DNA of 23,083 nt from a virus. Numbering within the stretch: the first letter of the stretch is position 1; the number at the start of each line of letters is the position of its first letter. The DNA is taken from IMG/VR virus record IMGVR_UViG_3300023253_000017, positions 1 to 23,083 of that record; one strand, written 5' to 3'. Shown one piece after another: positions 571 to 14,638 of this stretch. Under the pieces are notes generated by a model, which had not been told where the DNA came from, did not search any database, and was given only the letters and a program-made list of their open reading frames with translations. Position numbers and translations under genes: made by a program.

Positions 571-934
571 ATTATGGAAAGTGGTTCCAGATTATCCTAA
601 TTATAAAATATCATCCTTTGGGAGAGTTGAAAAACACGGCAAGATTTCTGATTTTTCTAATAGAAATGGTGATTACTATTTGTCTGAATATATGGGAAAT
701 GAAAGTGGTAGTATTATCAAGTATGTTCATGTGCTTGTTGCTGAATTGTTTATAGGTGAAAAACCTTCTCCGCTTCATATTGTGAACCATAAAGATCGCA
801 ACAAGAGAAACAACAGGGTTGATAATTTAGAATATTTAACCAAGAGCGAAAATAGCAAGCATTGGCTTACCGTTGGAAATCAATCTAAAAACATACCAGA
901 TCATAGTAAACAAGTATGGCTAAAAAATACATAA
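563..934 (+). CDS. HNH endonuclease with NUMOD4 motif (homing-type)
   Basis: This 123-aa protein starts with a NUMOD4-like DNA-binding motif (residues about 3-24: LWKVVPDYPNYKISSFGRV). An HNH_3-type nuclease core follows, with His56 in VHVLVAELF, the NHKD motif at 75-78 and the closing DNLEY at 87-91. This is the standard make-up of free-standing phage HNH homing endonucleases, which cut DNA site-specifically and spread their own gene. I took the ATG at 563 because residues encoded upstream in this frame come from the overlapping zinc-ribbon gene read out of frame. Upstream Shine-Dalgarno support is weak, suggesting translation coupled to that gene. Its 3' end overlaps the small terminase start by 19 bases. 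The gene is A/T-rich relative to the structural genes. Confidence 0.85.
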   Translation: MLELWKVVPDYPNYKISSFGRVEKHGKISDFSNRNGDYYLSEYMGNESGSIIKYVHVLVAELFIGEKPSPLHIVNHKDRNKRNNRVDNLEYLTKSENSKHWLTVGNQSKNIPDHSKQVWLKNT

Positions 935-1437
935 AAATACCCGAGTACGCTGTCTTGTGTGGATTGTCTTCTCAATACATACGCCGGATTATTGCGAAGG
1001 GGATTATTACCAAGCAGGCGGTTAAAAAAAAGGGTAAGCGTTTTCTGATTAATCCTGAGCAGGCGGATCTTGACCGGGAAAAGAATGTAGCGCCGGAGAA
1101 TCGTAAGAAGCCGAAACTGAAACCCACCGTTGAAGAAAAGGAAACAGTTTCAAAACAGGCTGGTACTAACAAATTAGATTATGCTGAATGTCGAAGATTA
1201 AACGAACAGTATAAGGCCGGGTTGAAAAAGTTAGATTACGACCAAAAATCAGGCCGGTTGATTCCCGCCGATGAGGTTGAGCGTGAATATTTTGACATTG
1301 CGCGGACGGTCCGGGATTCTTTGATGAACATACCGGGCCGGATCAACGCAATATTGGCGGCTGAGATAGACGAGGTTAAGGTGAATGAAATATTAACTCA
1401 GGAAATAACACAGGCTTTGGAGGTGTTGAGTAAATAA
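916..1437 (+). CDS. Terminase small subunit (Nu1-like)
   Basis: This 173-aa protein is the probable DNA-recognition subunit of the packaging terminase. Residues about 3-50 form a helix-turn-helix/winged-helix (IPEYAVLCGLSSQYIRRII), as in the lambda Nu1 family. A charged linker follows (about 55-90). A C-terminal helical part (about 103-172) contains a PADEVEREYFDIARTVRD-type segment and an LPSR-like MNIPGRINAIL segment, typical of Nu1-like small subunits that bind the large subunit. It is next to the large subunit except for an apparent two-gene insertion. No Shine-Dalgarno is seen, and an in-frame stop at 904 leaves 916 as the only good start, so translation may depend on coupling to the overlapping HNH gene. 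Its last codons are part of a 16-bp repeat found again at 2758. Confidence 0.8.
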   Translation: MAKKYIKIPEYAVLCGLSSQYIRRIIAKGIITKQAVKKKGKRFLINPEQADLDREKNVAPENRKKPKLKPTVEEKETVSKQAGTNKLDYAECRRLNEQYKAGLKKLDYDQKSGRLIPADEVEREYFDIARTVRDSLMNIPGRINAILAAEIDEVKVNEILTQEITQALEVLSK

Positions 1438-1441
1438 ATAT
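1426..1441 (+). repeat. 16-bp direct repeat, left copy
   Basis: TTGAGTAAATAAATAT at the stop codon of the small terminase recurs exactly at 2758-2773, just before the large terminase. The two copies bracket two genes that do not normally lie between terminase subunits, as expected of an insertion that duplicated its flank. Confidence 0.8.
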
Positions 1442-1445
1442 TTGC

Positions 1446-1525
1446 GGGGCGCGGCGAGGCGCGGCTCGGCTCGGCCAGGCAAGGCATGGCGAGGCGTGGC
1501 GTGGCAAGGCGTGGCAAGGCGAGGC
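1446..1525 (+). repeat. NNGGC pentamer array (16 units)
   Basis: Sixteen consecutive pentamers of form NNGGC (for example GCGGC, GAGGC, TCGGC, AAGGC, GTGGC) run without interruption. The first two bases vary while GGC is fixed. The array is followed by AGGGAAACAA and then a strong AGGGAGGGG ribosome site for the gene at 1561. A very similar array plus leader precedes the gene at 2284. The GG doublets every 5 bases could form a two-layer G-quadruplex in DNA or mRNA. The array is much richer in G+C than its surroundings. Confidence 0.9.
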
Positions 1526-1560
1526 AGGGAAACAATAACTTTAAATCAGGGAGGGGAATA

Positions 1561-2178
1561 ATGAAAGAATTAAAGATTAAATTGGTTGGTCAATCACCGT
1601 TGATTACTCACAATATCAGGCTTGCAAATCCATTGGGGGAATATGCACAAGCCATGAAATCATTAACGGGTAAACGGAATAAAACCGATGCCGATTTAAA
1701 AGAAATTGCAAAATTGGAATGGGAAGGCGGACTTTATTTGGAAGACGGGGTTGTTGTTATGCCTGCAAAGTGTCTTAATTCCTGTTTTTTTGAGGGGGCG
1801 AAAAAGAAAAAGAATGGTCCGAAATGGCGGACTGGTGCTATATTGCCAAGCGAGCACTATCCCATGGAATATAATGGGGCAAAGATTAATATTAGCGTTA
1901 ATGGAGATATTCCGAATCCTGATCTTGATAAATATTATAGTAATTTCAATGATCAGCGCATGGTTCGTGTGGGAACCGGGCAAATATTAAGAACAAGGCC
2001 ATTATTTTTGGGATGGTCTGTTCCTGATGTGGGTATTATGTATGATGAAAATATTCTTGATAAGCGGACATTGTTGCAGATTTGCGAGGATGCCGGTTAT
2101 CTTGTTGGATTGTGTGAAATGCGTCCAGGATCTAAGGGCGGCGGGACTTATGGGCGTTTTATTGTTGAAAATATTTAA
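1561..2178 (+). CDS. Conserved phage protein, possible RAMP/Cas7-like fold
   Basis: The 205-aa protein is of a type I recall from many phage genomes without a settled function. The N-terminal strand and SPLITHN (12-18) are followed by a charged helical segment (about 25-55), GVVVMPAKCLNSCFFEGAKK (63-82), an R-rich strand (VRVGTGQILRTRP, 135-147) and a glycine-rich C-terminal end SKGGGTYGRF (191-200). This series resembles the layout of RAMP proteins (SPL strand, PGSSLKG-like turn, G-rich loop), but that is my inference and no domain was confirmed. The start at 1561 is fixed by AGGGAGGGG at 1548-1556. The reading frame stays open upstream only because it runs through the pentamer array. The gene lies in the direct-repeat-bounded cassette. 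Confidence 0.75.
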   Translation: MKELKIKLVGQSPLITHNIRLANPLGEYAQAMKSLTGKRNKTDADLKEIAKLEWEGGLYLEDGVVVMPAKCLNSCFFEGAKKKKNGPKWRTGAILPSEHYPMEYNGAKINISVNGDIPNPDLDKYYSNFNDQRMVRVGTGQILRTRPLFLGWSVPDVGIMYDENILDKRTLLQICEDAGYLVGLCEMRPGSKGGGTYGRFIVENI

Positions 2179-2183
2179 GATGC

Positions 2184-2248
2184 AAGGCGTGGCGGGGCTC
2201 GGCAAGGCGGGGCATGGCGGGGCGTGGCAAGGCGAGGCAGGGCGAGGC
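2184..2248 (+). repeat. NNGGC pentamer array (13 units)
   Basis: Thirteen uninterrupted NNGGC pentamers begin just after the stop codon of the preceding gene. They end in GAGGCAGGGAAACAA, the same 15 bases as at 1521-1535, followed by a GGGAGG ribosome site (2271-2276). The shared leader shows that array, leader and ribosome site form a repeated unit placed before each of two unrelated genes. Confidence 0.9.
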
Positions 2249-2283
2249 AGGGAAACAAAAATCCAATACAGGGAGGTAATAAC

Positions 2284-2751
2284 ATGGAAACCAAGAAACA
2301 TCCAGCATGGAAAAATGCGATTGAAATAATTTTAAAGCGATTTGATACCAAAGGATATGGCATTGTTTTTTCTGATGAAGAGATTAACGAAATGCTTGAA
2401 ATAAAAAAACCAGAATTTGGTTCTTACGATTCTTTCCAAAAATTTCAATTGGAAAGAATGAGCCAACTGGAAAGCCTAAAGGAGGTATTACTTGAAAATT
2501 CAAGTCTATGCCTTGAAAGTTTGCGGGGGAATGGATACATATTGATGCATCCAGATGACCAGGTGCAAATAGTAGCAAAGAAGTTTTTTAAACATGCGAG
2601 AAATAAAATCAAACGCGCGACTGCTGTATTGATAAATGTGAACTACGAGCTATTATCAAGCGATGTGAAACAAAAACAGCTTGATATGCTTGGGAAAACC
2701 GCATTTATTAAAGCAGCTATGAATAAGAGAAAACTAATTAAGCAAGCATAA
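2284..2751 (+). CDS. Hypothetical protein of the pentamer-headed cassette (155 aa)
   Basis: I do not recognise this family. The protein is mostly charged and helical, with many lysines and two cysteine-free halves except near residue 75. A central stretch GNGYILMHPDDQVQ (about 99-112) could be the wing of a winged helix, and the C-terminal third (about 113-155) is strongly basic, which would fit nucleic-acid binding. No catalytic motif is visible. GGGAGG (2271-2276) is 7 bases before the ATG. The frame stays open upstream only through the pentamer array, so the longer start at 2224 is rejected. The gene ends 6 bases before the right copy of the 16-bp repeat and is therefore the second gene of the apparent insertion. 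Confidence 0.7.
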   Translation: METKKHPAWKNAIEIILKRFDTKGYGIVFSDEEINEMLEIKKPEFGSYDSFQKFQLERMSQLESLKEVLLENSSLCLESLRGNGYILMHPDDQVQIVAKKFFKHARNKIKRATAVLINVNYELLSSDVKQKQLDMLGKTAFIKAAMNKRKLIKQA

Positions 2752-2757
2752 AGGATT

Positions 2758-2773
2758 TTGAGTAAATAAATAT
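2758..2773 (+). repeat. 16-bp direct repeat, right copy
   Basis: This is an exact copy of the sequence at 1426-1441. Here it is noncoding, lying between the end of the cassette and the large terminase leader. In the left copy the same bases encode the last residues and stop of the small terminase, so this copy looks like the displaced original or duplicated end of that gene. Confidence 0.8.
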
Positions 2774-2806: not shown

Positions 2807-4678
2807 ATGACTATTTGCACATCAGCATTTAAAACCGGGCTCAAGCCGGATCCAAGATTAAACCTTGTCGAATGGGCTGACGAATATCTATATTTACCGC
2901 GAGAGTCCACGGCTGAATACGGCAAGTATCGATCAAGTCGGACACCGTTTGTTGTTGAACCCCTTTTAGAATTATCCCCCACATCCCCGACAAGAAAAGT
3001 GGTGTTAATGAAACCCGGCCAGACTGCGGGAACTACGATTGCAATTATATTTTTATTCGGAACCGCTGACTTATACCCTGGACCTACTTTGATGATCATG
3101 CCTACCGATACCCTTGCGCAGGGATTTTCAAAGAAAAAGATTACCCCCACCTTGCGAGATACCCCAAGGATGGCCGGCAAGATCAAGGATGCCAAGCTGA
3201 AAACTTCCAGCAATACAATTCTTGAAAAAATGTTTCCCGGTGGTTCTTGGCGTTTTTCCGGATCGAACAGCCCTGTTATTTACCGTCAAGAATCTGTGCG
3301 ATATTTAATTTTAGATGACTTTGACGGGTTTGATCTTGATATCGGAGATGAGGGCGATCCGGGCGATCTGGCAGACAGACGGACAGCGACCTTCGCAAAC
3401 TCAAAAACATTTATCAATTCTACTCCCACAATAAAAAGTTTATCAAATGTTGAACGTGAATACAACGCTTCAAGCATGGGAAAGTTTTGTTGTCCATGCC
3501 CGAAGTGTGGAGAACCTCAGTATTTAATATTTCAAAACCTAAAGTTCGACAAGCTGAATTTGTCTTGGATTTATTACGAGTGTGCGTTCTGTCAGCACAA
3601 AATTGACGAAGTTGACAAGAGAACCATGCTTCCGGATGGAAAGTATATCCACGAAGATCCGGAAAATGAGGTTCGGGGGTTTCAGTATAGCGCAATGGTT
3701 ACGCCGCTTGGTTGGAAAAACACATGGAAGAAAATTGCCGGTGACTTTTTAGCCTGCAAGATCCAGGGGGTTATAAATGTTGAAAAGCTGAAAACCTGGA
3801 CAAACACTTTGATAGCCGATCCGTTTGAGCAGAAAGGAGAACGCCCATATCACGAATCATTAAAAAACCGCGCGGCCCTCCCACAAAGCGAAATGTTAAT
3901 ACCTCAAGGCGCTTTGTTTTTGACCGCTTCCGTTGATGTTCAGCACTTATTTTTAGCGGTATTGATTCAGGCGTGGGGTAGGGGAGAAGAGTGCTGGACA
4001 ATCTCATATGATAGAATCCACGGCGATACGTCACGCGAAGAAGTTTGGAGCAAGTTGGATGAAGTGACTATTAAACGACAGTTTGAGCATGAATCAGGGG
4101 CGAAGTTGCATATTCTTAGCATGGGGGTTGATTCGGGCGATGGTGCCAGGACTCAGGCGGTTTATAATTATTGTCGGAAAAGACAACCTATCGTATTTGC
4201 GTTAAAGGGCCAGTCTAATCCGGGGAAGCCTGTTCTTGGAATGCCTACTGCGCAAGATGTGAATTATGGCGGCAAAAAAATTAAGGGTGGTATTCAATTG
4301 TGGCCTATCGGCTCAGACACCGCAACATTAACGGTTTATACTCGACTACAACAGGAAAAAGAGGGCCCGGGCTATTATCACTTTCCGGCTGGGCTTGACG
4401 ATGAGTTTTATTTACAGCTTACGGCTGAGAAGTTTGTGACCAATCGCAACAAGAAAGGTTTCCCGGTGCGTGAATTGGTCCGGGTGCATCCGAGGGCCGA
4501 GGTGTTGGATTGTTTTAAATACGCTTATGCAGCGGCATTACGGATATTAGACAGCATAAACTTAGATCAATTAGAGCGAGATTTAGCGAAACAACTGGAT
4601 AGTAAGACGAAAAGGCCGGAAGAGAAGGAGAAAAAGTCAACATTTATACCGGATAGAAAGGGGGGGTGGTTTAATTGA
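2807..4678 (+). CDS. Terminase large subunit (GpA family)
   Basis: This 623-aa protein is the ATP-driven packaging motor and DNA-cutting enzyme. The ATPase half has a Walker A-like KPGQTAGTT (69-77), a Walker B LILDDFDGF (167-175) and an STPTIKS motif (205-211). A zinc-binding insertion follows with CPKC (231-234) and CAFC (259-262), as in many GpA relatives. The nuclease half has ASVDVQ (Asp377), MGVDSGDGA (Asp442) and AEVLDC (565-569 region), fitting the metal-binding acids of the RNase H-like fold. Length is close to lambda gpA (641 aa). An in-frame stop at 2792 leaves 2807 as the only good ATG. The nearest Shine-Dalgarno (AGGGAG, 2775-2780) is 26 bases away, with a small hairpin between them. 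The partner is the small subunit at 916. Confidence 0.95.
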   Translation: MTICTSAFKTGLKPDPRLNLVEWADEYLYLPRESTAEYGKYRSSRTPFVVEPLLELSPTSPTRKVVLMKPGQTAGTTIAIIFLFGTADLYPGPTLMIMPTDTLAQGFSKKKITPTLRDTPRMAGKIKDAKLKTSSNTILEKMFPGGSWRFSGSNSPVIYRQESVRYLILDDFDGFDLDIGDEGDPGDLADRRTATFANSKTFINSTPTIKSLSNVEREYNASSMGKFCCPCPKCGEPQYLIFQNLKFDKLNLSWIYYECAFCQHKIDEVDKRTMLPDGKYIHEDPENEVRGFQYSAMVTPLGWKNTWKKIAGDFLACKIQGVINVEKLKTWTNTLIADPFEQKGERPYHESLKNRAALPQSEMLIPQGALFLTASVDVQHLFLAVLIQAWGRGEECWTISYDRIHGDTSREEVWSKLDEVTIKRQFEHESGAKLHILSMGVDSGDGARTQAVYNYCRKRQPIVFALKGQSNPGKPVLGMPTAQDVNYGGKKIKGGIQLWPIGSDTATLTVYTRLQQEKEGPGYYHFPAGLDDEFYLQLTAEKFVTNRNKKGFPVRELVRVHPRAEVLDCFKYAYAAALRILDSINLDQLERDLAKQLDSKTKRPEEKEKKSTFIPDRKGGWFN

Positions 4679-5488: not shown

Positions 5489-5728
5489 ATGGCAACTGAC
5501 TTCACGACATGGCCATCATTTAGAACGGCTATTAAAAACGCAATGGCTGATCATGTGGCCGGGTCTCCATGTACGGGGTCATATTCTAAAGGTGGCCGCG
5601 CCATAAGTTATCGCAACATTGATGAGTTAGTGGGTCTTTTAGAAAAAAGTTATCAGTTAGAGGCGCTTGAAAATTCGGGGGATAGAGCAAGGATGACTTC
5701 TTATGGCAGGCCGATGAGGTTTTCATAA
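5489..5728 (+). CDS. gpW-like head-tail joining protein
   Basis: This 79-aa protein matches the size and pattern of lambda gpW, which sits under the portal and helps close the filled head. It has a helical N-terminus, a basic turn with small residues (GSYSKGGRAISYR, about 30-42) followed by NIDELVGLLEKSY (about 43-55), and a basic C-terminus ending in RPMRF. Its position directly before the portal gene (apart from an HNH insertion) is the lambda position. The ATG follows the previous stop directly, and the stop overlaps the next ATG in TAATG. Sequence similarity to gpW is recognised by pattern, not by search. Confidence 0.7.
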   Translation: MATDFTTWPSFRTAIKNAMADHVAGSPCTGSYSKGGRAISYRNIDELVGLLEKSYQLEALENSGDRARMTSYGRPMRFS

Positions 5729-6222
5729 TGCAAACCCTAATCAGAGGTTTTGAAGAATATAAGATATTTAAGAATGGTGAAATAATTGGAAAATATGGCA
5801 GAAAATTAAAGCCGAGGATAAGCCCTGATGGATATGCCAGAGTGCAATTGCGCAAAAAAAAGAAATCGTATTCAAGATCTATTCATCGATTAGTTTTAGA
5901 AAATTTTACAAGCACGTGTCCAAATGGAAAAGAATGTAATCATAAAAACGGCATTAAGCATGACAATCGACTTGAGAATTTAGAATGGGTGACCAGAAGC
6001 CAAAATATCAAACATGCCTTTAGAATAGGGCTGCAATCACAAAAAGGTGAAAGAAGTACTCGCGCAAAATTGACAAATTTTAAAGTAAAAACAATTAGGT
6101 TTTTATTAAAAAATACAACCATTTCTCATTATAAAATTGCCGAAATGTTTGAAGTAACTCGGCCAGTTATTTCCAATATTAAAGCTCGTAGAATATGGAA
6201 TTATACGGAGGCTGGGGCATGA
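5728..6222 (+). CDS. HNH endonuclease with C-terminal helix-turn-helix (homing-type)
   Basis: The 164-aa protein has an HNH_3-type nuclease core: His53 in SIHRLVLENF, then NHKN (71-74) and NRLENLEWVT (80-89). The C-terminal part (about 114-160) contains HYKIAEMFEVTRPVISNIK, a helix-turn-helix expected to read the target DNA. This layout is typical of free-standing phage homing endonucleases. The start overlaps the gpW-like stop in TAATG. The end overlaps the portal start in ATGA, and its last codons contain the GGAG used as the portal's ribosome site. It is clearly more A/T-rich than its neighbours, which fits recent arrival. Confidence 0.9.
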   Translation: MQTLIRGFEEYKIFKNGEIIGKYGRKLKPRISPDGYARVQLRKKKKSYSRSIHRLVLENFTSTCPNGKECNHKNGIKHDNRLENLEWVTRSQNIKHAFRIGLQSQKGERSTRAKLTNFKVKTIRFLLKNTTISHYKIAEMFEVTRPVISNIKARRIWNYTEAGA

Positions 6223-8839: not shown

Positions 8840-9688
8840 ATGGCTGCTGTAAATAGAGACCCGTTTGTATATTCAAACAGAAAGGACGGTAAACCTCATA
8901 TGTTCAGGGGGCTGGTTAAGGCCGGATCTACCCAGGCAATTAAGCGGGGTGAGCTTTGCACTTGGAACGAAGAGGTCGGTTATTTCACACCGATAGATGC
9001 GATTGCCGATCACAGGTATCCTTTGGCGATTGCTGCCGAGGAGCAAAAGGCATCCGGTCGGCATGAGCTTGTCGCTTCCAGATATATTTTGTTCTACTCA
9101 CTTCATCCCGAGGACATTTTCGAGTTTCCAATTGCCGCTGCACAGTCTTTGGCAGTTGGCGATCCTTTTACCATGACCGCTACGACTACTCAGACGCTAA
9201 CAGCAAGCACCGGGGCGTTTGCTGTAGCTCATAATGTCGGCTGGGATCACTACCCGCAAGAGGAAGATACCACAATCAGAAATCAAAGCTACGCGAGGGT
9301 GTCTTTCAATCCTTGTGTGTCTTATTGGGGTTTCCGGTTCAGCAAATTGATGAATCTTGGCGTAAGGGTTATTACTACCGCTGCTGATCTCACGCTACTT
9401 GAAAGCGATATGTATAACACCCTTATTCTTGTAACCGCTGCCAAGACAATAACTTTGCCAGCGGTTAAACCTGGGATGGACACAACTATAGTCGGAACCG
9501 GAGCCTATGCCGTGGTGGTTGATCCTGATGACGATGACCAGCTACGCATTGCGGGGGCGCTATTAACCGCCGGTTTTACAATTACTTCAGGTGGTGCGGC
9601 TGGGGATAGTGTTCACCTTTTAACAGAGGGTGCCGCTGGTTTTATTGTATTAGATGAAAATGGAACATGGACGGCTGAAACTGCATAA
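8840..9688 (+). CDS. Putative head decoration protein, copy 1
   Basis: This 282-aa protein has two parts. Residues about 1-170 (MAAVNRDPFVYSNRKDG onward) are nearly the same as in the following gene. A C-terminal part (about 180-282, starting near LLESDMYNTLI) is a strand-rich module with TLPAVKPGMD and a terminal GTWT, a type often seen in phage virion surface proteins. Its place between the protease/scaffold and the major capsid gene is where lambda has its head decoration protein gpD, so decoration is the likeliest role. CGGAGG before the ATG gives strong expression, fitting an abundant structural protein. It is longer than gpD (110 aa), so the assignment rests on context. Confidence 0.6.
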   Translation: MAAVNRDPFVYSNRKDGKPHMFRGLVKAGSTQAIKRGELCTWNEEVGYFTPIDAIADHRYPLAIAAEEQKASGRHELVASRYILFYSLHPEDIFEFPIAAAQSLAVGDPFTMTATTTQTLTASTGAFAVAHNVGWDHYPQEEDTTIRNQSYARVSFNPCVSYWGFRFSKLMNLGVRVITTAADLTLLESDMYNTLILVTAAKTITLPAVKPGMDTTIVGTGAYAVVVDPDDDDQLRIAGALLTAGFTITSGGAAGDSVHLLTEGAAGFIVLDENGTWTAETA

Positions 9689-9714: not shown

Positions 9715-10557
9715 ATGGCTGCTGTAAATAGAGACCCGTTTGTATATTCAAACAGAAAGGACGGCAAGGCCCATATGTTTAAAGGGCTGGTCCAGGCCGG
9801 ATCTACCCAGGCAATTAAGCGGGGTGAGCTTTGCACTTGGAACGAAACCACGGGTTACTTTATCCCCATTGATGCGATTGCCGATCACAGGTATCCATTA
9901 GCGATTGCTGCCGAGGAGCAGAAGGCATCCGGAAGGCATGAGTTGGTTGCTTCAAGATACATTCTTTTTTATTCACTTCATCCGGAAGATGTTTTTGAAT
10001 TTCCGATTGCTGCCGCTGCAAGCGTGGCCGTTGGTGATCCCTATACAATGACCGCAACTACAACCCAGACATTAACCGCAAGCACCGGTGCTTTTGCCGT
10101 GGCAACCGTTGTCGGTTGGGATCATTATCCACAGGAAGAAGATACCAGCATCAGAAGTCAGAGTTATGCACGATTTTCTTTTAACCCCTGCTGTACTTAT
10201 TGGGGATTTCGTTTTTCTAAATTGGTAAATCCTGGACGAAGGGTTGTGACAATAGCAGCGACCGGCACTTTGCTTGAGTCTGATATGTATAACACATTAG
10301 TTACTCTTGCCGGTACAAGTACTGTAACGCTTCCGGCGGTTAAGCCGGGCATGGACGCTATTTTTGTCAATATTGACGGTGATACTCAATGTCTTGATCC
10401 AAATGCTGTTGATTTAATCCGTCTGGATGGGGCGTTACTGGATGTTGGCGATAAGATTACCCAATCTACAATAGGCTTTTCGTGTCGATTGATAACAGAA
10501 GGTGCAGACGGTTTTACTTGTTTGGCTCCTGTTGGTGAATGGACTGACGGAAGTTAA
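9715..10557 (+). CDS. Putative head decoration protein, copy 2
   Basis: This 280-aa protein is a tandem paralogue of the preceding one. The N-terminal 170 residues are close to identical, and the first 50 bases are the same in both genes. The C-terminal module (from about 180) has diverged strongly but keeps LLESDMYNTL, TLPAVKPGMDA and an EWTDG end. CGGAGG precedes the ATG. Together the copies suggest two alternative surface modules on one capsid-binding domain. It directly precedes the major capsid gene. A tail or spike role cannot be excluded from sequence alone. Confidence 0.6.
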   Translation: MAAVNRDPFVYSNRKDGKAHMFKGLVQAGSTQAIKRGELCTWNETTGYFIPIDAIADHRYPLAIAAEEQKASGRHELVASRYILFYSLHPEDVFEFPIAAAASVAVGDPYTMTATTTQTLTASTGAFAVATVVGWDHYPQEEDTSIRSQSYARFSFNPCCTYWGFRFSKLVNPGRRVVTIAATGTLLESDMYNTLVTLAGTSTVTLPAVKPGMDAIFVNIDGDTQCLDPNAVDLIRLDGALLDVGDKITQSTIGFSCRLITEGADGFTCLAPVGEWTDGS

Positions 10558-12821: not shown

Positions 12822-13856
12822 ATGGCTAAACTAACCGGAATGGACGGTGTTTTAAGGGTTTATGATAGTAGCGCAATCCTTTTAGGAACCGCTCCACGAG
12901 ACGATGCCACGGTGGATATTGTTACATGGGACGGTTCAACGACTTATGCTAATATTACTGCCGCCGTGGATACAGACGACACAAGCTATTCATCTGACTT
13001 CCTTACAGACAATGACGATGCGGTGTTTATCGGTGCTGACGTTTCTTTTGCGATGATTCAATTCAAAAAGGATGGTGCCAGTCAATACGCCGTATCATCC
13101 GGGGCGCTGAAAGCTTATTATTTTGACGGCACCAATTTTGACAATACCGTAACGGCAACAGACGGGACGGCAACCGGGGCTGATTGCTTTGTGCAGGATG
13201 GTTATATTACGTTCAAGGTTCCTGAAGGTTGGGCGTTGGGAGCAAATGCTGTTAGTGCAAACCTTGATTCCGACAAGTACTATATTAAGTTAATGACCAC
13301 CACTTCTCCGTCAACCGCTCCGGATGCGGATATCCTTTGTCCTGTTGACGGTCAATTTTTTGAAGTAGCTTTTGCGAACATGGATTTTAACGGACCTCTT
13401 GGAAGGACCAAGACAGAAGAAATCTTGGTTTTAAACCGAATGCGCATGGATGCTAATGCTCATTACATTGAAGGTCCTGACAGTCCTATTTACGACCCAT
13501 TGCCGACCTCTTTTAGCGCGGCTTTAGATGATACTCTAAACAAAAACGATATTCAAATTGCTTTGGCTTGTGGTGATCCGGATTCCGCGAACTGGACCGC
13601 GACTGGCACAAGCTCTAAAGGTGACACTAAAAACGATGGCACTAACGCTAATCCTTCATTTGCTGAGTCCACAAAAAAGACAGTCAATATTCAAATGTTG
13701 TTTGGCACAATGGGGGTAGGCTGGGCGTATTACGAGGTCTTTGTTCCTGAAGATCAAGTAACATTCGCTGAGTCGGAGTCGGACGTTCCTATCACTGTAA
13801 ATGCCGGCGTTTATGGTGTGATTGAACTTATACATGGTTTTGGGGTGAGGCACTGA
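12822..13856 (+). CDS. Tail tube protein, long form with extra domain
   Basis: This 344-aa protein is paralogous to the gene at 14631. Shared elements are MAK....G..RVYDSS at the start, then NGPLGRTKTEEILVLNR (about 196-212), HYIEGPDSPIYDPLP (about 219-233), NDGTNANPSFAES and a late QVTFAESESDVPITVN. The core fits a major tail (tube) protein, and the place before the tail chaperones and tape measure supports that. Between the first strand and the core, about 155 residues (about 25-180) are inserted that the short paralogue lacks. They are rich in Asp, Thr and Tyr and strand-like, possibly a domain displayed on the tail surface. The stop overlaps the HNH start in TGATG. Confidence 0.75.
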   Translation: MAKLTGMDGVLRVYDSSAILLGTAPRDDATVDIVTWDGSTTYANITAAVDTDDTSYSSDFLTDNDDAVFIGADVSFAMIQFKKDGASQYAVSSGALKAYYFDGTNFDNTVTATDGTATGADCFVQDGYITFKVPEGWALGANAVSANLDSDKYYIKLMTTTSPSTAPDADILCPVDGQFFEVAFANMDFNGPLGRTKTEEILVLNRMRMDANAHYIEGPDSPIYDPLPTSFSAALDDTLNKNDIQIALACGDPDSANWTATGTSSKGDTKNDGTNANPSFAESTKKTVNIQMLFGTMGVGWAYYEVFVPEDQVTFAESESDVPITVNAGVYGVIELIHGFGVRH

Positions 13857-14638
13857 TGATTATATGTTGGGATAATTTAGAGGGATTAAAATATAATCTA
13901 CAGAAAGATCGGTTTTATAACAAAACCGTTACTTATATTTATAAGGAATCATGTCTTGTTTGCAAGCAACCATTTTTAACTCAAATACAATCAAAGGGTT
14001 TGTGTTGTTCAAATTCATGTTCGTCAAAATTAAAAAATACTGGTCGTATTCGTAGCGAAGAAGCAAAGGAAAGGATTAGGATGGCCAGGGCGAAACAATC
14101 GCCTCCTATGCTTGGGTGTTTTCATTCGGAAGAAACAAAAAAAAGAATTAGCAAGAGTATAGGTGGAGAAAACAATGCTAACTTTGGGAAATACGGTAAA
14201 AATCATCATTCCTATGGCCGAAAGGCTTCGATTAGGACAAAAGAAAAAATGAGCAAAGCGCATGAAGGAAGGGTTGTGTCTCTAAAAACGCGACAAAAAA
14301 TAAGCATGGCCAAAAAAGGGCGATATTGTGGAAATGAAGCCTCTAACTGGAACGGAGGCACTTCTCAATTGCCTTATTGTTATATATGGACACAGGATTT
14401 TAAAGAAGAAATAAAGAACAGAGATGGATATATATGCCAAAATCCATTTTGTTCTAAACAATGCAACTTATTGTGTGTCCATCACATTGATTATAACAAA
14501 CAAAATTGCTCAACAGAAAATTTAATTACTTTATGTGTCGCATGTAATAGCAAGGCGAATTTTGATCGCAAATGGCACTCCGCTTTTTATAAAGAAATTA
14601 TGAGAAGGAATAAAAAAAGGAGATTTTATTATGGCTAA
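13856..14638 (+). CDS. HNH endonuclease with NUMOD3 motifs (homing-type)
   Basis: This 260-aa protein has an N-terminal zinc-finger-like part (Cys33, Cys36, Cys50/51, Cys55). Several NUMOD3-type DNA-binding helices follow (SEEAKERIRMARAK, SEETKKRISKSIGG, TKEKMSKAHEGR, KTRQKISMAKKGR, about 67-156). A C-terminal HNH nuclease (about 185-235) has HHIDYN (209-214), EN and CVAC (227-230). This is the plan of a free-standing phage homing endonuclease. It sits exactly between two paralogous tail-tube genes. Its start overlaps the upstream stop by one base, and its 3' end supplies the AAGGAG of the downstream gene. It is markedly A/T-rich. Confidence 0.92.
   Translation: MIICWDNLEGLKYNLQKDRFYNKTVTYIYKESCLVCKQPFLTQIQSKGLCCSNSCSSKLKNTGRIRSEEAKERIRMARAKQSPPMLGCFHSEETKKRISKSIGGENNANFGKYGKNHHSYGRKASIRTKEKMSKAHEGRVVSLKTRQKISMAKKGRYCGNEASNWNGGTSQLPYCYIWTQDFKEEIKNRDGYICQNPFCSKQCNLLCVHHIDYNKQNCSTENLITLCVACNSKANFDRKWHSAFYKEIMRRNKKRRFYYG

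Follow-up and report, generated by a model that had tools for sequence, protein, structure and literature searches.

A probable type II-like VIPR cassette with two putative guide arrays between the terminase genes of a tailed phage

In the tailed-phage sequence studied here, the two genes and two pentamer arrays that separate the terminase genes are very probably a type II-like VIPR system that the phage carries as cargo. The 2026 preprint that introduced VIPR (Viral Interference Programmable Repeat; PMC13142463) gives its components as a small RAMP protein, an accessory gene, and guide RNAs (vrRNAs) in which YNNGG repeats are followed by a tail, and describes it as an RNA-guided DNA binder that represses competing phages. 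VIPR itself is already known, though very new, and the cassette adds another member. The window, meaning the whole stretch analyzed (23,083 nucleotides of the IMG/VR record IMGVR_UViG_3300023253_000017), opens with small genes, an HNH/NUMOD4 endonuclease gene (563-934) that abuts TerS, and TerS itself; the order vrRNA1-vipr-vrRNA2-vap follows, ahead of TerL. The features are as follows, with L005 denoting a near relative of the window.

916..1437, plus strand: terminase small subunit gene (TerS), left neighbor (phrog_57, E=4e-29; 78% DNA identity with L005)
1426..1441, plus strand: left copy of a 16-mer, the TerS end plus ATAT; no repeat of it at the right border in L005
1445..1529, plus strand: vrRNA1, putative guide array of 17 YNNGG units, from reading the array in units
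1530..1560, plus strand: vrRNA1 3' tail and vipr leader with ribosome site, 31 nt, 100% identical in L005
1561..2178, plus strand: vipr, for a RAMP-fold, predicted RNA-guided DNA-binding protein of 205 aa (PDB 36pp, AlphaFold, Foldseek)
2183..2252, plus strand: vrRNA2, putative guide array of 14 YNNGG units, from the same unit reading
2253..2283, plus strand: vrRNA2 3' tail and vap leader with ribosome site, 31 nt, 100% identical in L005
2284..2751, plus strand: vap (vap1-like) accessory gene, 155 aa, product probably winged-helix and DNA-binding (wV8 gene 94 homology; weak fold matches)
2758..2773, plus strand: right 16-mer copy, in the vap-TerL gap; differs in L005, which has about 310 bp more
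2807..4678, plus strand: terminase large subunit gene (TerL), GpA type, right neighbor (PF05876, PF20454, phrog_15; 100% DNA identity with L005)

A first-pass annotation of this DNA had placed two non-terminase genes between TerS and TerL, each with a pentamer array and a ribosome site, and this layout is confirmed: the genes at 1561-2178 and 2284-2751 belong to phrog_4652 and phrog_5926, which are function-unknown families in PHROGs, and a strong ribosome site lies inside each 31-nt gap between array and start codon. The annotation took the pair for a cargo unit that it could not name; the cargo part stands, and homology of Vipr now supplies the name VIPR. Its remark that integrases and transposases are absent holds for the cassette, since PHROG and Pfam scans between TerS and TerL found neither and returned the vipr and vap families only, although an HNH/NUMOD4 endonuclease gene adjoins TerS.

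Scanned alone, the gene at 1561-2178 matches the PDB entry 36pp, 'SUSP1 Vipr protein', with E=5.3e-21, and a profile built from 69 relatives of its product matches the same entry with E=6.5e-39. All 69 aligned family members (69/69) match phrog_4652, while Pfam and NCBIfam names for the family were chance-level matches only. The AlphaFold model has a pLDDT of 95.1, and its top Foldseek matches in the PDB are Csm3/Cas7-type CRISPR chains; each of the 28 PDB matches with E<=0.001 is to a chain or subcomplex of a Csm or type VII CRISPR system, at TM-scores of only about 0.4. By homology and by its modeled structure, the product is a Vipr RAMP protein, with the RRM plus G-loop fold of that class and a predicted likeness to Csm3. 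The second gene, vap, is homologous to wV8 gene 94 (BLASTP E=4e-13; profile 3.5e-23), which adjoins wV8 vipr between two GGY/NN arrays, and a tblastn search of phages with vap gave no match, though a profile search finds homologues. Its predicted structure (pLDDT 90.5) resembles winged-helix DNA-binding domains weakly, with E 0.06 at best, and the model suggests that the product is probably a winged-helix DNA-binding protein. We infer the type II label solely from the homology of vap to the accessory gene beside vipr in wV8, a SUSP1-like phage.

The arrays have the composition expected of vrRNAs, which in the published cases have 9-16 YNNGG (GGY/NN) repeats with variable NN and an invariable structured 3' tail (PMC13142463). 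GGC is invariant and NN variable in both arrays, and Y is C in all units. The NN series is GG GC GA GC TC TC CA AA AT GA GT GT AA GT AA GA AG in vrRNA1, whose 17 units by strict count are one above the published range, and AA GT GG TC AA GG AT GG GT AA GA AG GA AG across the 14 units of vrRNA2. Array GC content is 79%, against 34-45% in neighboring genes. From the end of each array to the following start codon is exactly 31 nt, and both tails open alike, with AAACAA after the last GG; folding of the tails gave no stable structure (z 0.7 and 0.1), and their sequence is 100% conserved with L005. A search for known RNA families and tRNAs returned none, and a literature search on the pentamer repeat alone gave no lead. 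Read from their sequence, vrRNA1 and vrRNA2 are putative guide RNAs of VIPR.

Across viral loci, arrays and Vipr are strongly linked. A pattern scan for arrays covered 2.9 million viral contigs, and from the matches listed we took loci L032-L150; among these 119 loci, picked by array pattern alone with a scan that demanded a purine at the first N in seven units and so biased the sampled arrays, 81 encode a Vipr homologue. For 82 of the 85 Vipr genes there is an array at most 300 bp upstream or 600 bp downstream, and array strand relative to Vipr is the same in 388 cases and opposite in 0. Many of the 38 loci that lack Vipr have their array near the locus end. In the control set of TerL-selected relatives (L006-L031), there was no array of 8 or more units and no Vipr match. 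Some of the sampled loci have a more elaborate content: L146 (1068-5117) combines two Vipr genes, one vap, and many arrays, and L034, L054, and L058 mix GGC arrays with tRNA-like strings such as GGTTCGACTCC.

Two relatives have nearly the same proteins and different guides. L001, from metagenome 3300005918, is a near-clone of the window, with 22 differing columns in 7009; 20 of these fall within 1456-1487, inside vrRNA1, and two sites are outside the guide. Expressed in units, L001 has lost GA GC TC TC and gained TC, and GGC is untouched. In L005, from metagenome 3300031657, vipr is 99.5%, vap 99.8%, and both tails and TerL are 100% identical to the window, and both guides differ: 14 of 110 paired array positions are mismatched, against 4 mismatches in about 1150 positions of vipr, vap, and tails (Fisher p about 1e-12, although sequence columns are not independent, so that the turnover p-values are overstated and the location of the differences is what counts). 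In both relatives vrRNA1 departs from that of the window solely by NN and by whole units. Assembly error in a repeat could produce guide differences, but a typical short read is longer than 85 bp. Across these three genomes, the guides gain and lose whole 5-bp units and the protein genes are fixed. It is possible, at somewhat less than even odds, that in nature YNNGG unit gain and loss, through recombination or slippage between GGC repeats, alters the guides at a higher rate than the remaining genome changes; the window and L001 would then be two recent guide alleles of one phage, and unit gain and loss may be a route of retargeting that needs no integrase.

Work on SUSP1 (PMC13142463) showed vrRNA expression, Vipr binding, DNA recognition with a 1-nt skip, repression, and its enhancement by vap1, and by analogy a mechanism can be proposed for the window. 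Each array would share a transcript with the 5' leader of its gene, from which a vrRNA would be processed; on the YNNGG repeats of this vrRNA Vipr subunits, being Cas7/Csm3-like RAMP proteins, would assemble as shown for SUSP1 (PMC13142463). The NN pairs would then read double-stranded DNA, with one base skipped per step; GCnGAnGCnTCnTCnCAnAAnATnGAnGTnGTnAAnGTnAA is the predicted 1-nt-skip target sequence. The bound complex would block transcription of the target gene, which a competing phage or satellite probably carries, and the vap product would help repression. If the skipped base is put at the third position of each codon, vrRNA1 gives the stop-free peptide pattern A[DE]ASS[HQ][NK][IM][DE]VV[NK]V[NK], as expected if the target is coding. 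Searches for natural targets with exact 1-nt-skip patterns of vrRNA1, vrRNA2, and the L001 and L005 guides, over IMG/VR viral contigs and in one GTDB scan, gave 0-9 matches each, none extending along the guide, and in a mismatch-tolerant search with skips of 0-3 over part of the fetched loci, the window guides matched at >=60% their own arrays only.

Negative target searches are what one would see if this were a decayed VIPR whose guides have lost their purpose, but vipr and vap are intact and 99.5-99.8% conserved in L005, and 20 of the 22 L001 differences lie within a guide in which all units keep GGC; we give decay a slim chance. Another view is that the arrays are recombination linkers or regulatory leaders that shuffle gene modules rather than guides. 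Identity between the window and L005 does shift sharply at the end of TerS, beside the first array, and the spacing from array to gene is constant, but the arrays are tied strongly to Vipr and not to genes in general, GGC stays invariant while NN varies, and the same arrays are guide RNAs in the published VIPR (PMC13142463), so that we regard a linker role as very unlikely. Translation of the arrays as repetitive N-terminal extensions of both proteins has in its favor that each window array reads without a stop in the frame of the gene behind it and that the unit counts 17, 14, and 11 differ by multiples of three. Over 37 array-gene pairs, though, the numbers open in frames 0, 1, and 2 are 17, 14, and 26, respectively; unit counts have no modulo-3 bias, and a strong ribosome site follows each array. 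We rejected array translation on these frame and unit counts, and consider it hardly credible. A guide function in a VIPR system is the reading that we retain.

How the cassette came to lie between the terminase genes was addressed in the first-pass annotation through a 16-bp direct repeat. The repeat exists as described: exact copies of TTGAGTAAATAAATAT stand at 1426-1441 and 2758-2773, and the window has no further copy at up to 2 mismatches. The left copy consists of the last TerS codons and stop (TTG AGT AAA TAA) followed by ATAT, and the right copy lies 34 bp upstream of TerL. Sequences drawn from a first-order Markov model of the window contain a 16-mer repeated within 2 kb in 1.4% of cases and at any distance in 10.7%, and the other short-range 16-mer repeats, among the matches listed, are those of the arrays and of a duplicated gene pair only; a chance repeat in AT-rich gene ends is unlikely but not extraordinary. 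If a transposon-like element or moron had inserted here and duplicated its target site, an exact 16-mer at both borders, with its 1.4% chance within 2 kb, would be its trace, and distant relatives do have cargo-free TerS-TerL junctions. L005, however, has the same cassette at the same site with borders TTTTAAGTAAATAAATATTTGCGG and TTTTGAGTAAATGAAAAAAG and no 16-mer repeat, which runs counter to the claim that the 16-mer records an insertion; a 16-mer not conserved at the borders is an outcome that the annotation itself had named as refuting. No transposase or integrase accompanies the cassette. The right-hand motif TTTGAGTAAATGA is found again in L005 where two small genes start, and for that reason looks like a gene-junction motif. 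These two genes (L005 1991-2343) lie between vap and TerL, are absent from the window, and each start at TTTGAGTAAATGA. Target duplication via the 16-mer was rejected on the L005 cassette, and we consider such an insertion very improbable.

Acquisition of the cassette by some route is nevertheless probable because many relatives have TerS next to TerL, as the annotation had supposed, and other cargo occupies the junction in several. The two genes are adjacent or nearly so in L007, L015-L018, L020, L021, L023-L025, L028, and L029; other genes lie between them in L006, L010, L014, and L022 and directly upstream of TerL in L008 and L012, and the junction cargo of L012 and L014 includes DNA methyltransferases. 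The junction is variable in these relatives. An empty site in a close relative, which the annotation had proposed to look for, was not found: the nearest cargo-free junctions have a TerL about 44% identical or less. A search of the phage collection gave no DNA-level relatives. The annotation had also proposed to look for the same genes and arrays at other loci, and the same four-part array-vipr-array-vap block sits directly after TerL in L062, in agreement with the idea of a single cargo unit. In L007, TerS and TerL are 14 bp apart, and an array and a Vipr homologue lie far from the terminase on its contig. Because the junction is variable and vipr blocks sit at other places (L062, L007), movement of the cassette as a unit is likely. 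Seven of the array-selected loci (L033, L038, L062, L069, L072, L081, and L093) have their Vipr gene downstream of a GpA-type TerL.

Some further genes of the window and its relatives are of note. Proteins encoded between TerS and TerL in L006 (818-2452), L010 (661-1290), and L022 (4327-4878) belong to no Pfam, PHROG, or PADLOC family and are candidates for unknown cargo. HNH endonuclease-like genes precede TerS (563-934) and the portal gene (5728-6222; HNH recognized by eye) in the window. Most of both is missing from L005, in which TerS is 78% identical compared with 99.5-100% for vipr, vap, and TerL, a combination consistent with homing and co-conversion or with mosaic exchange of another kind. 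Between two structural genes lies an additional endonuclease gene, of HNH/NUMOD3 type (13856-14638), and the adjacent paralogous genes at 8840-9688 and 9715-10557, which share long identical stretches, are by their sequence a recent tandem duplication.

The closest described system is the felixounavirus VIPR of Escherichia phage SUSP1 and its relatives, wV8 among them (type II; PMC13142463, PDB 36pp), with which the window shares homologues of both vipr and the accessory gene, GGY/NN arrays followed by 3' tails, and a phage-borne location; wV8 Vipr is nearly identical to SUSP1 Vipr over the aligned N-terminus. SUSP1 has one vrRNA upstream and three downstream, whereas the window has vrRNA-vipr-vrRNA-vap between TerS and TerL, and compared with SUSP1 the window has Y = C in every unit and tails that differ in sequence and appear unstructured. 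In Pseudomonas phage LESphi2, a VIPR-like locus with a 38% identical Vipr, an adjacent homologous second gene, and GGY arrays upstream adjoins repressor and sigma-factor genes, unlike the terminase setting of the window. L062 (IMGVR_UViG_3300018080_001996) has the same vrRNA-vipr-vrRNA-vap order and a 46% identical Vipr, but its cassette directly follows TerL. The predicted fold of window Vipr resembles Csm3 among the Cas7/Csm3 RAMP proteins of Class 1 CRISPR systems; in contrast to these, no CRISPR array or cas genes were noted, and VIPR guide logic is discontinuous.

VIPR has been proposed as the ancestor of CRISPR RAMP systems (PMC13142463), and how its guides acquire new targets lies outside the main text of that preprint. 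With three near relatives that have the same proteins and different guides, turnover of the guides can be tested directly. VIPR has a recurrent home in the terminase-portal stretch, and we suggest TerS-TerL-portal as a cargo site to survey.
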